A program made the position numbers and the translations under genes. The notes under the pieces are model-generated. The model made no database searches and had not been told where the DNA came from. It saw only the letters and a list, made by a program, of their open reading frames with translations. A DNA stretch of 64,000 nt from Umezawaea tangerina. GTDB taxonomy: Bacteria > Actinomycetota > Actinomycetes > Mycobacteriales > Pseudonocardiaceae. The stretch is from the NCBI RefSeq assembly GCF_003002815.1, contig NZ_PVTF01000023.1:62001-126000 (forward strand), in the 5' to 3' direction. Below, piece by piece: positions 2 through 31,427 of this stretch (position 1 is its first letter; every line of letters starts with the position of its first letter).

Positions 2-196
2 CCGACGCTGTTCGGGGCGCTGATCGCCGCGGACCTGGTGGACGAGCTGTGCGTCACGGTCGCGCCCGCGCTGGTGGGCGGTGACGCGGGCCGGATCGCG
101 CACGGGGCGACGCCCGAGGTGCCGCGCGGGATGGAGCTCACCTCGGTGCTGCACTCGGAGTCGGCGCTGCTGCTGCGCTACCAACGCGTGCGCTGA
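2..196 (+). CDS. RibD C-terminal/dihydrofolate reductase-like protein, 3' end only
   Basis: Only the last 64 codons lie in the window; the reading frame is open from base 2 to a TGA at 194-196. The tail reads PTLFGALIAADLVDELCVTV then APALVGGDAGRI, the usual C-terminal pattern of the RibD_C/dihydrofolate-reductase fold (pyrimidine reductase family), including the L-x-D-E-L and P-x-L-x-G-G segments. Such proteins bind NADPH and reduce pteridine- or pyrimidine-like substrates, or are related reductases of unknown substrate. The substrate cannot be assigned from this fragment. The ligase gene follows 26 bases later on the same strand. Confidence 0.75.
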   Translation, partial: PTLFGALIAADLVDELCVTVAPALVGGDAGRIAHGATPEVPRGMELTSVLHSESALLLRYQRVR

Positions 197-27084: not shown

Positions 27085-27513
27085 ATGGAACCTGTTGTCG
27101 GCGCCACGCCGAAGGACGTCCGTTCGGAGCAGGAGTGGCGGGAGAGCCTGACCCCGAGCGAGTACCGGGTGCTCCGCCAGGGCGGCACCGAGCCCGCCTG
27201 GGTCGGCGAGTACACGGACACCAAGACCGTCGGTGTCTACGAGTGCCGCGCGTGCGGCACGGAGCTGTTCCGCAGCGAGACCAAGTTCGACTCGCACTGC
27301 GGGTGGCCGTCGTTCTTCTCCCCGCTGGCCGCGGACCGCGTGATCCTGCGCGAGGACCGCGCCATGGGCATGGTCCGCACGGAGGTGCTTTGCGCGCATT
27401 GCCACAGCCACCTCGGGCACGTGTTCGAGGGCGAGGGTTACGAGACCCCGACCGACCAGCGCTACTGCATCAACAGCATCAGCCTGCGTTTGGTCGACGA
27501 CTCCGCGCGGTGA
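27085..27513 (+). CDS. msrB: Peptide methionine (R)-S-oxide reductase
   Basis: 142 residues, full length for the family. Four zinc-binding cysteines (C54, C57, C103, C106), H-C-G-W-P-S-F-F, and the catalytic C128 in Q-R-Y-C-I-N-S are present. It repairs oxidised methionine residues in proteins with thioredoxin as reductant. A likely -10 lies in A-T-T-A-G-C-G-T-G-G-A-G-G just before the start; the GGAGG is the ribosome site. Confidence 0.95.
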   Translation: MEPVVGATPKDVRSEQEWRESLTPSEYRVLRQGGTEPAWVGEYTDTKTVGVYECRACGTELFRSETKFDSHCGWPSFFSPLAADRVILREDRAMGMVRTEVLCAHCHSHLGHVFEGEGYETPTDQRYCINSISLRLVDDSAR

Positions 27514-27849: not shown

Positions 27850-28773
27850 GTGGACCAGCCGTGGGGGCTCTCGGGCCCGGAATTCCTGAGGATCTACTGG
27901 ATCGCGTTGGGCGTCGCCCTGCTGTTCGCGGTCTTCGTCCGGATGCGCATGCGGGCCAGTCGGGGTGACGGGCCCGCACGCGATCTCGGCATCGACGAGC
28001 TGGCGTACCTGTCCGGCGGGCCGCGCCGGGTCGTCGAGGCCTCGCTGGCCCGGCTGATCGAGGCCGAGGCCCTGCGCTCGACGCGCCGCGGCACCGTCAG
28101 CCTGATCGGCAAGCCCACCGCGGTGAACCCGGTGGACAAGGCCGTGCTGGCGGACGCCGCCCGCTACAGCAAGCGCACGCTGAACCTCCTGATGGCCACC
28201 GTCGCGCAGACCGACGCGGTGAAGTCGATCGCGACCCGCCTCGGTGAGCAGGGACTGCTCGTGGACCCCGTCGTGGCCAAGCGGCAGGCGCGGGTGGGTG
28301 TCGTGCCGATGCTGGTGCTGTTCCTGATCGGGGTCGTCCGCTGGGTCAACGGGATCGCGATCGGCGCTCCCGTCGGCTGGCTGACGCTCCAGCTGGTGGT
28401 CACCGCGCTGCTGGCGGTGCTGATGACCAGGGCGGGCCGGATCCGGCGCACGGCCAGGGGTGACCGCGCGCTGGACGGCGCCCGCACCGGTGGCACCGGG
28501 GCCGGGGTGACCGGCCCGGCCGTGGCCGTGGGCGGGGCGGTCGGCCTGGTCGCGCTCGGCGGCCTGTCGGCGCACCCTGACCTGACGCTGCGGACCGCGC
28601 TGATGACCCAGGCCTACGGGTCGGGTTCGTCCGGCGGCGGCGGCTCGACGTACGTGGGGAGCTCGTGCTCGAGCTCCAGCGGCAACTCCTGCTCCAGCTC
28701 CAGCGGCAGCAGCTGCGGCAGCGGGGGTGGCGGTTGCGGGGGTGGCGGCGGCTGCGGTGGGGGCGGCGGCTGA
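27850..28773 (+). CDS. TIGR04222-type membrane protein with Cys/Gly/Ser tail (MNIO-substrate candidate)
   Basis: 307 residues from the GTG at 27850 (V-D-Q-P-W-G-L-S-G-P-E-F-L, the usual family start). A membrane helix at 11-31, a soluble region with L-A-Y-L-S-G-G-P-R-R-V-V-E-A-S-L-A-R-L (about 50-70), two further helices at 150-166 and 172-192, a Gly-rich segment, then from about 257 a low-complexity Gly/Ser tail. All five cysteines of the protein lie in this tail (273, 281, 289, 296, 302), spaced by 6-8 residues. The DUF692 oxygenase gene downstream makes the tail a candidate for cysteine modification. The frame is open upstream to 27781, but the GTG matches family starts. Confidence 0.85.
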   Translation: MDQPWGLSGPEFLRIYWIALGVALLFAVFVRMRMRASRGDGPARDLGIDELAYLSGGPRRVVEASLARLIEAEALRSTRRGTVSLIGKPTAVNPVDKAVLADAARYSKRTLNLLMATVAQTDAVKSIATRLGEQGLLVDPVVAKRQARVGVVPMLVLFLIGVVRWVNGIAIGAPVGWLTLQLVVTALLAVLMTRAGRIRRTARGDRALDGARTGGTGAGVTGPAVAVGGAVGLVALGGLSAHPDLTLRTALMTQAYGSGSSGGGGSTYVGSSCSSSSGNSCSSSSGSSCGSGGGGCGGGGGCGGGGG

Positions 28774-28785
28774 CCGCAGGGGGGC

Positions 28786-28832
28786 GCCAAGGCCATCACC
28801 GGACGTCGTGACGTCCTCGTGATGGCCTTGGC
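28786..28832 (+). terminator. Two-part hairpin between the two TIGR04222 genes (attenuator/terminator)
   Basis: GCCAAGGCCATCAC pairs perfectly with GTGATGGCCTTGGC (14 bp), and GGACGTC pairs with GACGTCC inside it. It is very stable and lies directly after the first TIGR04222 stop. It may reduce read-through so that the first protein is made in excess over the later genes, or protect the 3' end of its mRNA. Confidence 0.7.
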
Positions 28833-28902
28833 CGCGTGACGCGGAACGAACAGGCCCGCCGCGGAGTCGGATGGCCATCGGCTTGGGTGAAAGGCGGCGG
28901 TC

Positions 28903-29760
28903 ATGACTTCCGGGACGACGATATCGGGCAGACCAGGGATCTCGGCCGAGGAGTTCGGCTACCTGGCGGGCGGTCCTGGCCGCGCCGCGGAGGTGGCGGT
29001 CGTCCGGCTCCTGGAGGGCGGGCTGCTGCGGATCTCCCGCGAGGGCGTGGTGAGCGCGGTGGCCTCGGGCGCCGCGGGCGCGGGCACGCCGCTGGAGGCG
29101 TACGCGCTGGGCGCGGCCCGCACCGGCCGGATGCTGGGCGACCTGGTCAAGTCCACGGCCACCAGCGAGGCGGCCTCGGCGCTGCGGCAGCACCTGGTCG
29201 ACCGGGGCCTGGTCGTGTCCGACGCCCGCCGCAAGACGTGGTCGACGGTCCGGGTGCTCTGCTTCGTCGCGTTCTTCGCCGCCATCGCCCTCACGATCGT
29301 GTTCCGGGTGCACTTCGGGGTCGCGATCGGCGTGGCCGTGGTGGCGCTGCTGCTGCGCTGGTTCGCGGGCCGGATGCGGCGCCCGGTGCGCCGGGCGGGC
29401 AGGCGCGAGGTCGGCCGGGTCAAGGTGGCCGCGGGCGACCGGGTGGGCATGGTCGCGCAGATGGGCCTGCTGGGCCGGGTCGGCCAGTTCCCGCGGATGT
29501 ACTACGTGTGGGAGATGCTGGGCATCGTGCCGAGCGCCGGTGCCACGCTGCGCAGGCGCAAGCCCGTCCGCAACAGCGGCGACACCGGCACGATGTACGG
29601 GAGCAGCTGCAACAGCTGCTCCAGCTGCTCCAGCGGGTGCGGTGCCGACAACAGCGGGTGCGGCAGCGGCAGCAGCTGCGGGTCGAGCGGCGACAGCGGG
29701 TCGTCGTGCAGCAGCGGCTCGTCCTGCGGGTCGTCGTGCGGTGGAGGGGGCGGGGACTGA
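28903..29760 (+). CDS. Second TIGR04222-type membrane protein with Cys-rich tail (MNIO-substrate candidate)
   Basis: 285 residues, with a shorter N-terminus than the first copy. Family segment [20 protein letters not shown] at 13-32. Hydrophobic segments at about 116-134 and 138-153, then a basic stretch. From about 230 to the end there is a tail of Ser, Gly and nine cysteines (236, 239, 242, 246, 253, 259, 269, 275, 279); only one other cysteine occurs (C120, in a membrane helix). The stop overlaps the ATG of the DUF692 gene (TGATG), so both are translated together. Confidence 0.85.
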
Positions 29761-30575
29761 TGGGCGTGCTGGACAAGCTCGGCGTCGGCATCGGCTGGCG
29801 CCCGGAGATCGACCTGACCGTGGAACGGCTGCCCGGCGTCGACTTCGTCGAGGTGGTGGCCGAGAACCTGCACGTGGAGCACCTGCCGGAGTCGATCCTG
29901 CTGCTGCGCGAACGGGGTGTCCCGGTGCTGCCGCACGCGGTGTCGCTGTCGCTGGGCAGCGCGGACCCCGTCGAGCCGGACCGCGTCGAGCACCTGGGCG
30001 CGGTCGCCGAGGCGCTGGGGGCGCCGCTGGTGAGCGACCACGTCTGCTTCGTCCGCGCGGGCGGGCTCGACTCGGGCCACCTGATGCCGGTGCCGCGCAC
30101 CCGCGACGCGCTGGACGTGCTGGTGGCCAACGTGAAGACGGCGCAGGCGAACCTGCCGGTGCCGCTGGCGCTGGAGAACATCGCCGCCCTGCTGGAGTGG
30201 CCCGACGGCGAGCTGACCGAGGGCCAGTTCCTCGCCGAGCTGGTCGAGCGCACCGACTGCCACCTGCTGATCGACGTGGCGAACCTGCACGCGAACGCGC
30301 TCAACCTGGGCACGGACCCGAACCGGTTCCTCGACGAGATCCCGTTGGAGCGGCTGGCCTACGTGCACGTGGCGGGCGGCGTCGAGCACAACGGCGTCTA
30401 CCACGACACGCACGCCCACGCGGTGCGGCCGGAGGTGCTGGAGCTGCTGGGCGAGCTGCGGTCGCGGGTGGACCCGCCGGGCGTGCTGCTGGAGCGCGAC
30501 GACAACTACCCGTCGGACACCGAGCTGGCGGGCGAGCTGGCCGCGATCCGCGGGGTGCTGGCGAGGCACGCGTGA
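29760..30575 (+). CDS. DUF692/MNIO-family multinuclear iron oxygenase-like protein
   Basis: 271 residues; TIM-barrel DUF692 domain. Start G-V-G-I-G-W-R-P-E, then [11 protein letters not shown]. Probable metal ligands: H59 ([10 protein letters not shown]), D93/H94 (S-D-H-V-C), E139 (L-A-L-E-N), D172 and H177 (I-D-V-A-N-L-H), H203 (Y-V-H-V-A-G-G), D216/H218 (H-D-T-H) and E245 (L-L-E-R-D-D-N-Y-P). MbnB and TglH of this family oxidise cysteines in peptides to oxazolone/thioamide or remove the beta carbon. Translationally coupled to the Cys-tailed protein before it and to a small partner after it (GTGA overlap). Confidence 0.92.
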
Positions 30576-30919
30576 ACGGGGACCAGCGCGAGCGGCTCGC
30601 ACGGGCGCAGGCGGAGCTGCTCGGCGCGCTGCTCGCGGGCGGCCCCTCCCCCGCCGGGTTCGACCAGCGGCTGCTGGCGGTCGAGGCGAACTCCTTGCTG
30701 GCCAAGAGGCGCGGCATCGTGGCGATGCTGAACCCCGAGGTCGCCGACGTGCTGGCCGACCGCTTCCGGCCGCTGTTCGACGAGTACGCCCGCGCGCACC
30801 CGCGCAGGACGGGCAGCCGGGCGCGGGAGGACGCGGTGGACTTCGCGGCGTGGGCGCGGGAACGCGGCGAGCTCCCCACCGAGAAACCGAATCGCTGGTG
30901 GCGGAGGAAGGCAACCTGA
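30572..30919 (+). CDS. Small MNIO partner protein (substrate-recognition candidate)
   Basis: 115 residues from the GTG at 30572, overlapping the DUF692 stop. Helical: [26 protein letters not shown], then a helix-rich [12 protein letters not shown] and [12 protein letters not shown]. The position after a DUF692 gene and the [10 protein letters not shown] segment resemble partner proteins (MbnC/TglI/HvfC-like) that bring substrate to the oxygenase. The Streptomyces SCO6045-type proteins may be close relatives; I have not been able to check this. Confidence 0.7.
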
Positions 30920-30944: not shown

Positions 30945-31427
30945 ATGAGGATCGTCGGGGTGCTGGGTTGCCTGCTGGTGCTGGGTGCGTGCGGGTCTGA
31001 GCCCGAGGTCGGCTGCACGATGATCGGGACACCGGTGGGGATCGGGCTGGACGTGGCGATGCCCGAGGTGCGGACCGCGACCATGCAGGTCTGCTGGGAC
31101 GACAAGTGCGTCGACCCCGTCGTGGAGCTGCACCCGTCGTCCTCGGCGGGCCCGCAGACGTGCACCGGCACCGCCCCGACGGACTCGTGCGGGGTGTCGG
31201 TCGTGCCGACCGGCGGCCGCAACGGCTTCGCGGACGTCCCCGACCTGCCCACCGCGCCGGTGCGGGTCACCCTGCGGCTGTCGGACGCGAACGGCGTGGT
31301 GCTCGTCGACGAGGTGCTGACCGCGACGCCGAAACCCGCCTACCCCAACGGTGTCGAGTGCGGCGGGCAGGGCCCGCAGACCGGCCTGGTGGTGTCCGCC
31401 GCGGGGGTCGTGACCGAGCGGACCTGA
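30945..31427 (+). CDS. Cysteine-containing lipoprotein of unknown function
   Basis: 160 residues from the ATG at 30945 (a GTG six bases earlier is also possible). Signal peptide with lipobox L-G-A-C-G. The mature part has C-T-M, C-W-D-D-K-C, and several more cysteines, probably disulfide-bonded outside the membrane, with a predicted beta-sandwich pattern (V-R-V-T-L-R-L-S-D). It follows the MNIO cluster in the same direction after about 25 bases, so it may be part of that operon. Confidence 0.65.
   Translation: MRIVGVLGCLLVLGACGSEPEVGCTMIGTPVGIGLDVAMPEVRTATMQVCWDDKCVDPVVELHPSSSAGPQTCTGTAPTDSCGVSVVPTGGRNGFADVPDLPTAPVRVTLRLSDANGVVLVDEVLTATPKPAYPNGVECGGQGPQTGLVVSAAGVVTERT

Follow-up and report, generated by a model that had tools for sequence, protein, structure and literature searches.

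A four-gene cassette of Umezawaea tangerina is, in a reading that we hold with moderate confidence, a protein-length and membrane-anchored relative of the cysteine-modified peptides made by MNIO (DUF692) enzymes, in which two TIGR04222 membrane proteins would carry soft-metal-binding tails in the cytosol. The cassette lies in the window, that is, the whole stretch of 64,000 nucleotides that was analysed, within contig C23 of a 10.7 Mb genome. The idea that such tails are substrates is not new, because Antoine et al. (2025; PMC12452194) had already proposed subsets of TIGR04222 proteins as MNIO substrates through their C-terminal Cys-rich tails, with the same TIGR04222, MNIO and PME-type 2 families and an identical substrate hypothesis, leaving the modifications and roles of these proteins for future study. 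What is new in this work is that the published idea was tested across many genomes, and that a cytosolic location is predicted for the tail.

Organization of the cassette

The four genes, P1, P2, the MNIO enzyme and its helical partner, follow each other on the same strand (Table 1), with overlaps of 1 base between P2 and the enzyme gene and of 4 bases between the enzyme and partner genes. Both P1 and P2 exceed the 43-bit cut-off of the NCBIfam TIGR04222 profile and are the sole proteins of the source genome to do so; a 706-aa frame elsewhere in the same genome (L003, C1:1214681) matches TIGR04222 weakly and lacks a Cys tail. P2 lacks TM1 and has one two-helix hairpin followed by the Cys tail. 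Cysteines are largely confined to the tails, with 5 out of 5 in P1 (hypergeometric p 1e-4) and 9 out of 10 in P2 (p 5e-6). Thus, the two membrane proteins with cysteines in Gly/Ser tails and the overlapping DUF692 and partner genes, as given in a preliminary description of this DNA, were both confirmed.

Table 1. Features of the TIGR04222-MNIO cassette and its flanks (positions in the window, or residues where stated).
Feature	Position	Strand	Characteristics
MsrB gene	27085-27513		just upstream of P1
P1, TIGR04222 membrane protein	27850..28773	+	307 aa, GTG start at 27850; NCBIfam TIGR04222 139.1 bits, hydropathy, AlphaFold2 model pLDDT 80.9
P1 domains	TM1 residues 12-30; globular part ~44-145; TM2/TM3 151-193		followed by the Cys tail
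P1 Gly/Ser/Cys tail	28618..28770	+	last 51 residues, 5 Cys
Intergenic hairpin P1/P2	28786..28832	+	14-bp perfect stem, arms 28786-28799/28819-28832
P2, second TIGR04222 membrane protein	28903..29760	+	285 aa; TIGR04222 78.1 bits; two hydrophobic peaks
P2 Gly/Ser/Cys tail	29575..29757	+	last 61 residues, 9 Cys
MNIO (DUF692) enzyme	29760..30575	+	271 aa; PF05114 277 bits; aligns with the solved MNIO structures 3bww, 8hci (chain of the TglH complex) and MbnB
Helical partner, PME-type 2 like	30572..30919	+	115 aa; weak DUF2063 match; rank-1 PDB match of the model MbnC, weak score
Small lipoprotein-like gene	30945-31427		after the partner gene

The intergenic hairpin of the same description is equally real, with an RNA fold z of -4.24 against 200 shuffles. 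It was also present in both same-genus loci inspected (15 bp in L024; 16 bp at 88% in L052), but in six loci with other genus codes perfect stems did not exceed 8 bp, for which reason it was rejected as a general feature of the cassette.

Relatives of the upstream MsrB gene were found in 34 of 49 loci from the organism's own family and, among 118 class/phylum loci, in 2 (L133 and L141), a contrast that is rough because less flanking DNA was taken for the class loci. On these counts MsrB was rejected as a functional partner, and it is read as a mark of the insertion site of the cassette; in some loci, what are presumably heme-synthesis genes appear farther upstream of it. The lipoprotein-like gene after the partner has a relative in 11 of the 49 family loci, and an apparent relative adjoins a tail gene of the draft genome G095 (L075 4249-4725). 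By eye, no metal gene was recognised among the largest neighbour clusters, a point against the metal role proposed below.

The MNIO enzyme and its partner

With a score above the PF05114 cut-off of 25 bits, the enzyme belongs to the MNIO (DUF692) family, and its closest named relative among the 30 loci listed comes from Umezawaea endophytica (93% identity). BufB is the top-scoring of the five NCBIfam models that it matches, which brings it near the bufferin system (BufA/BufB/BufC), but its score of 196.8 bits, where the cut-off is 310, leaves it outside the BufB family (NF050167), and its partner, in another difference from bufferins, has no DUF2063 above cut-off. The DUF2063 match of the partner (14.8 bits, E 0.035; cut-off 27.2 bits) keeps it apart from PME-type 1 as well; this domain was matched at E<=1 by 14 of 45 partner relatives, with a best value of 2.1e-4, and neither the 23 Foldseek matches obtained with the partner model nor the VIA list contained a DUF2063 protein, although a match to one may exist outside these lists. 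The methanobactin pair MbnB/MbnC shows likeness on both sides, as the enzyme aligns with MbnB and the rank-1 PDB match of the partner model is MbnC, although this second similarity is weak (Foldseek E 2.3), and MbnB/MbnC act on a substrate very different from TIGR04222 tails. When the alignments of the partner and of TIGR04222 were used as sequence profiles against the PDB, nothing matched significantly; the rows for TIGR04222 included winged-helix regulators, with E values from 0.16 upwards.

The partner gene comes directly after the MNIO gene, and relatives of it are present in 46 of 49 TIGR04222-MNIO loci of the own family and in 68 of 69 MNIO-bearing class/phylum loci, in 40 of them within the enzyme's own frame. 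These shared partner/MNIO frames occur among L085-L098 and in loci within L129-L228. Partner relatives were therefore found in nearly all MNIO loci inspected, whereas Antoine et al. (PMC12452194) report PME-type 2 proteins in at least 10% of their clusters, a 115-residue Saccharothrix protein being among their PME-type 2 models. The alignments used comprised 60 of 99 selected proteins (A1), 45 of 58 references (A3, from which wrong-frame rows, a near copy and an incomplete row were omitted) and 23 of 26 (A4).

Co-occurrence of TIGR04222 and MNIO genes

The preliminary description had considered that TIGR04222 proteins might be found mostly without DUF692 genes, an outcome that did not occur. 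Among 100 genomes of the own family, TIGR04222 was above cut-off in 50 and MNIO in 49, and in all 48 genomes having both the two genes were adjacent (within 6 kb). The phylum sample (296 genomes; E<=1e-12 for TIGR04222 and E<=1e-8 for MNIO) gave 15 genomes with TIGR04222, 19 with MNIO and 14 with both, and the class sample (394 genomes) 110, 99 and 84, respectively, so that MNIO accompanied TIGR04222 in 48/50, 14/15 and 84/110 genomes of three samples that overlap. One of the 26 apparent misses of the class sample, G442, has an MNIO gene cut by a contig end. Regarding the 107 TIGR04222 gene groups of the class sample, with adjacency taken as about 8 kb, 20 were in MNIO genomes away from MNIO, and for another 27 the genome yielded no MNIO; regions were fetched for 100 of the 107, the seven omitted being all MNIO-adjacent. 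In the survey of Antoine et al. (PMC12452194), MNIO genes were lacking from about one third of the genomes with TIGR04222; the association seen here in the own-family and phylum samples, under stricter cut-offs, is tighter.

Tail cysteines and the presence of MNIO

Tails were defined with a fixed window rule as a C-terminal Gly/Ser/Cys-rich suffix. This rule is stricter than an initial one, whose results on 109 class proteins had already been seen and which required at least two Cys in the last 60 residues and a Gly+Ser fraction of at least 0.35. The initial rule gave Cys tails in 43 of 62 proteins near MNIO, in 9 of 20 that lie at another place in an MNIO genome and in 5 of 27 from MNIO-less genomes; under the suffix rule, three of these last five have one Cys (G418, G713 and G734), G509 has no suffix and G442 is the genome with the cut MNIO. 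In total, 252 TIGR04222 proteins were examined, with 179 near MNIO, 42 elsewhere in MNIO genomes and 31 from genomes where no MNIO was found, and a Gly/Ser tail was absent from 42 of the 179 first counted near MNIO and from 15 MNIO-less proteins. Once G442 had been moved to the former class, Gly/Ser tails carried at least two Cys in 136 of 138 cases near MNIO versus 2 of 15 without MNIO found. The two exceptions belong to the draft genome G095, and the other 13 tails have 0-1 Cys. Counted by genus, with G442 still as MNIO-less, Cys tails were found in 40 of 40 with MNIO and 2 of 6 without, and the Fisher p values of 4.5e-15 by protein and 9e-5 by genus both ignore descent. G050 (L046) stands alone among the genomes with MNIO-adjacent tailed proteins in that none of its own reaches two Cys; there the MNIO match comes in three separate pieces and the adjoining TIGR04222 tail has one Cys.

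Because of shared descent, these counts are not independent and overstate the evidence. A tree was built from 110 of the 181 tailed proteins, taking one per genome if MNIO-adjacent and including 14 MNIO-less proteins; along it, MNIO presence changes 5 times and offers 1 well-supported independent contrast. Among 200 random pairings on this tree, the tail trait went the same way in a fraction of 0.7, the other way in 0.0 and showed no difference in 0.3.

The proposal in the preliminary description that the tail is the substrate, already in print, is thus supported by the genome comparison, but not for every genome: in 19 of the 114 with both genes near each other, all of genus g53, none of the TIGR04222 proteins at that place carries a Gly/Ser tail, and therefore the tail is not always the substrate. 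A split precursor in the g53 loci was sought and rejected; a scan of 21 loci (the 19 of g53 together with L097 and L098, where MNIO occurs without TIGR04222) returned Cys/Gly/Ser-rich frames in four of them (L090, L202 twice, L188 and L098), all of which look non-coding by eye. In one set, 17 of 19 TIGR04222 frames were used, since those at L092 (+, 4088) and L096 (-, 4198) were second readings of the same genes. Loci of genus g53 often show a TIGR04222 gene, tailed or not, and a secreted hydrolase-like gene downstream.

The g53 genomes, with their retained enzyme and TIGR04222 protein, also speak for a different explanation, in which the tail cysteines are not touched by MNIO and act unmodified, in metal binding or disulfides, while the enzyme works on the TIGR04222 domain or some other target. 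It would likewise fit the 21 of 28 tailed paralogues away from MNIO that keep at least two Cys, though their genomes have MNIO elsewhere, and G095, a draft assembly with two Cys tails and no MNIO found. We regard it as improbable, given that Gly/Ser tails are kept where no MNIO was found and yet hold no more than one Cys in 13 of 15 cases, and that MNIO-adjacent tails are devoid of the CC and CxC pairs typical of metallothioneins.

Spacing and context of the tail cysteines

In 137 MNIO-adjacent tails with 640 Cys there is not a single pair of cysteines less than 3 residues apart, against 110+-8 in 1000 shuffles, and CC is absent (58+-7 in shuffles). Moreover, Cys-Gly occurs 485 times versus 303+-11 in shuffled tails and Ser-Cys 304 versus 189+-10, Gly, Ser or Ala follows Cys in 634 of 639 cases compared with 78% after other residues, and only 2 tail cysteines have a Pro within three residues. 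The P2-type tails of L065, L010 and L047 are nearly pure Ser/Cys, with 7 to 11 Cys.

Such rules, together with a Cys content that tracks MNIO, make it very improbable that the tails are functionless low-complexity by-products of GC-rich repeats, as might be thought from their high Gly/Ser content and from the variation of length and Cys number between paralogues. Repeat expansion could nonetheless be an alternative source of the regular Cys spacing. The same tail grammar matches the preference of FonBC, the thiooxazole-forming MNIO fontiphorin synthase, which tolerates only Gly or Ala after Cys, rejects Pro at every site and took 8 Da from a two-repeat substrate (PMC13097082); the match is suggestive, as the Gly/Ser background and repeat growth could explain part of it. 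On this comparison, 5-thiooxazole would be the candidate modification of the tails. Captophorins (fontiphorin and oxazolin; Gadgil et al. 2026, PMC13097082) also have an MNIO acting on repeated and evenly spaced Cys followed by Gly, but they are peptides built on EGKCG repeats, and their partner is of the DUF2063-RRE type (PME1), whereas the carrier in the cassette is an integral membrane protein, its partner is short and the EGKCG repeat is absent from both the P1 and P2 tails.

Membrane topology and the globular domain

Charge patterns and the number of hydrophobic peaks suggest that the tails face the cytosol. In 60 relatives, K+R numbers are 0.17 before TM1, 3.83 after TM1 and 5.15 after TM3, with a similar but weaker pattern in 68 class/phylum proteins; in all 68, K+R is higher in the 20 residues that follow TM3 than in the loop, a shorter one, between TM2 and TM3. 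At a hydropathy threshold of 1.6, exactly three peaks were found in 59 of these 68 and a fourth in 9, and P2-type proteins show two peaks in 14 of 19. Antoine et al. (PMC12452194) predicted the opposite for selected TIGR04222 proteins, placing tails and large domains outside the cytoplasm, with the tails in the periplasm. P1 starts with a transmembrane peak, in the place where bufferin precursors have a cleavable Sec signal peptide. Tails that are modified but lie outside the cytoplasmic membrane, as bufferins do and as the 'display' of the preliminary description implies, would agree with P1 itself, in which TM3 is followed by a fourth segment of weaker hydrophobicity, and with four peaks in 40 of 107 own-family P1-type proteins at a threshold of 1.5, the segment after TM3 reaching 1.6 in 42% of 60 relatives. 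However, the fourth segment of P1 is only an 8-residue helix in the AlphaFold2 model, and a cytosolic enzyme would be forced to act before export, so that we consider this location fairly unlikely. An outward display of the tails is thus unsupported, and the four-peak proteins slightly lower our confidence.

As for the globular part of P1, it may be a distant relative of GPP34/GOLPH3: a profile match extends over 88 columns and GPP34 proteins are the best-ranked Foldseek matches, with weak structural scores. Neither P1 nor P2 matches GPP34 (PF05719) at E<=1; it is matched by 3 of 60 P1 relatives (best E 1.7e-5), and DUF2207_C weakly by 18 of 60. In contrast with GPP34/GOLPH3/Vps74, which are peripheral proteins, TIGR04222 adds transmembrane helices and a tail. 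The available text of Antoine et al. (PMC12452194) has no mention of GPP34, GOLPH3 or Golgi.

Proposed function and significance

In the mechanism that we favour, P1 and P2 would sit in the cytoplasmic membrane with the GPP34-like domain and a flexible tail on its cytosolic face, where the cytosolic MNIO, aided by the small partner, would oxidise the tail cysteines singly within [Ser/Gly]-Cys-Gly units, with 5-thiooxazoles as the most likely product. At the membrane, the resulting tethered chain would bind a soft metal, copper or a different one. A more specific version, which we consider doubtful, takes TIGR04222 as a membrane-embedded scaffold of the GPP34 type with an uncleaved thiooxazole polymer on the cytosolic face, a RiPP-like modification retained on an integral membrane protein, in which the GPP34-like domain would replace a leader; the partner is too short to contain a full RRE and may be unable to bind one.

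The favoured mechanism predicts that each modified Cys loses ~4 Da and that the sites are spaced Cys-Gly units facing the cytosol, and the Gly/Ser tails with 0-1 Cys in genomes where the enzyme was not found provide natural controls. It also suggests a possible fold for the TIGR04222 family of membrane proteins. If true, the chemistry of MNIO enzymes would reach membrane proteins, beyond secreted peptides.
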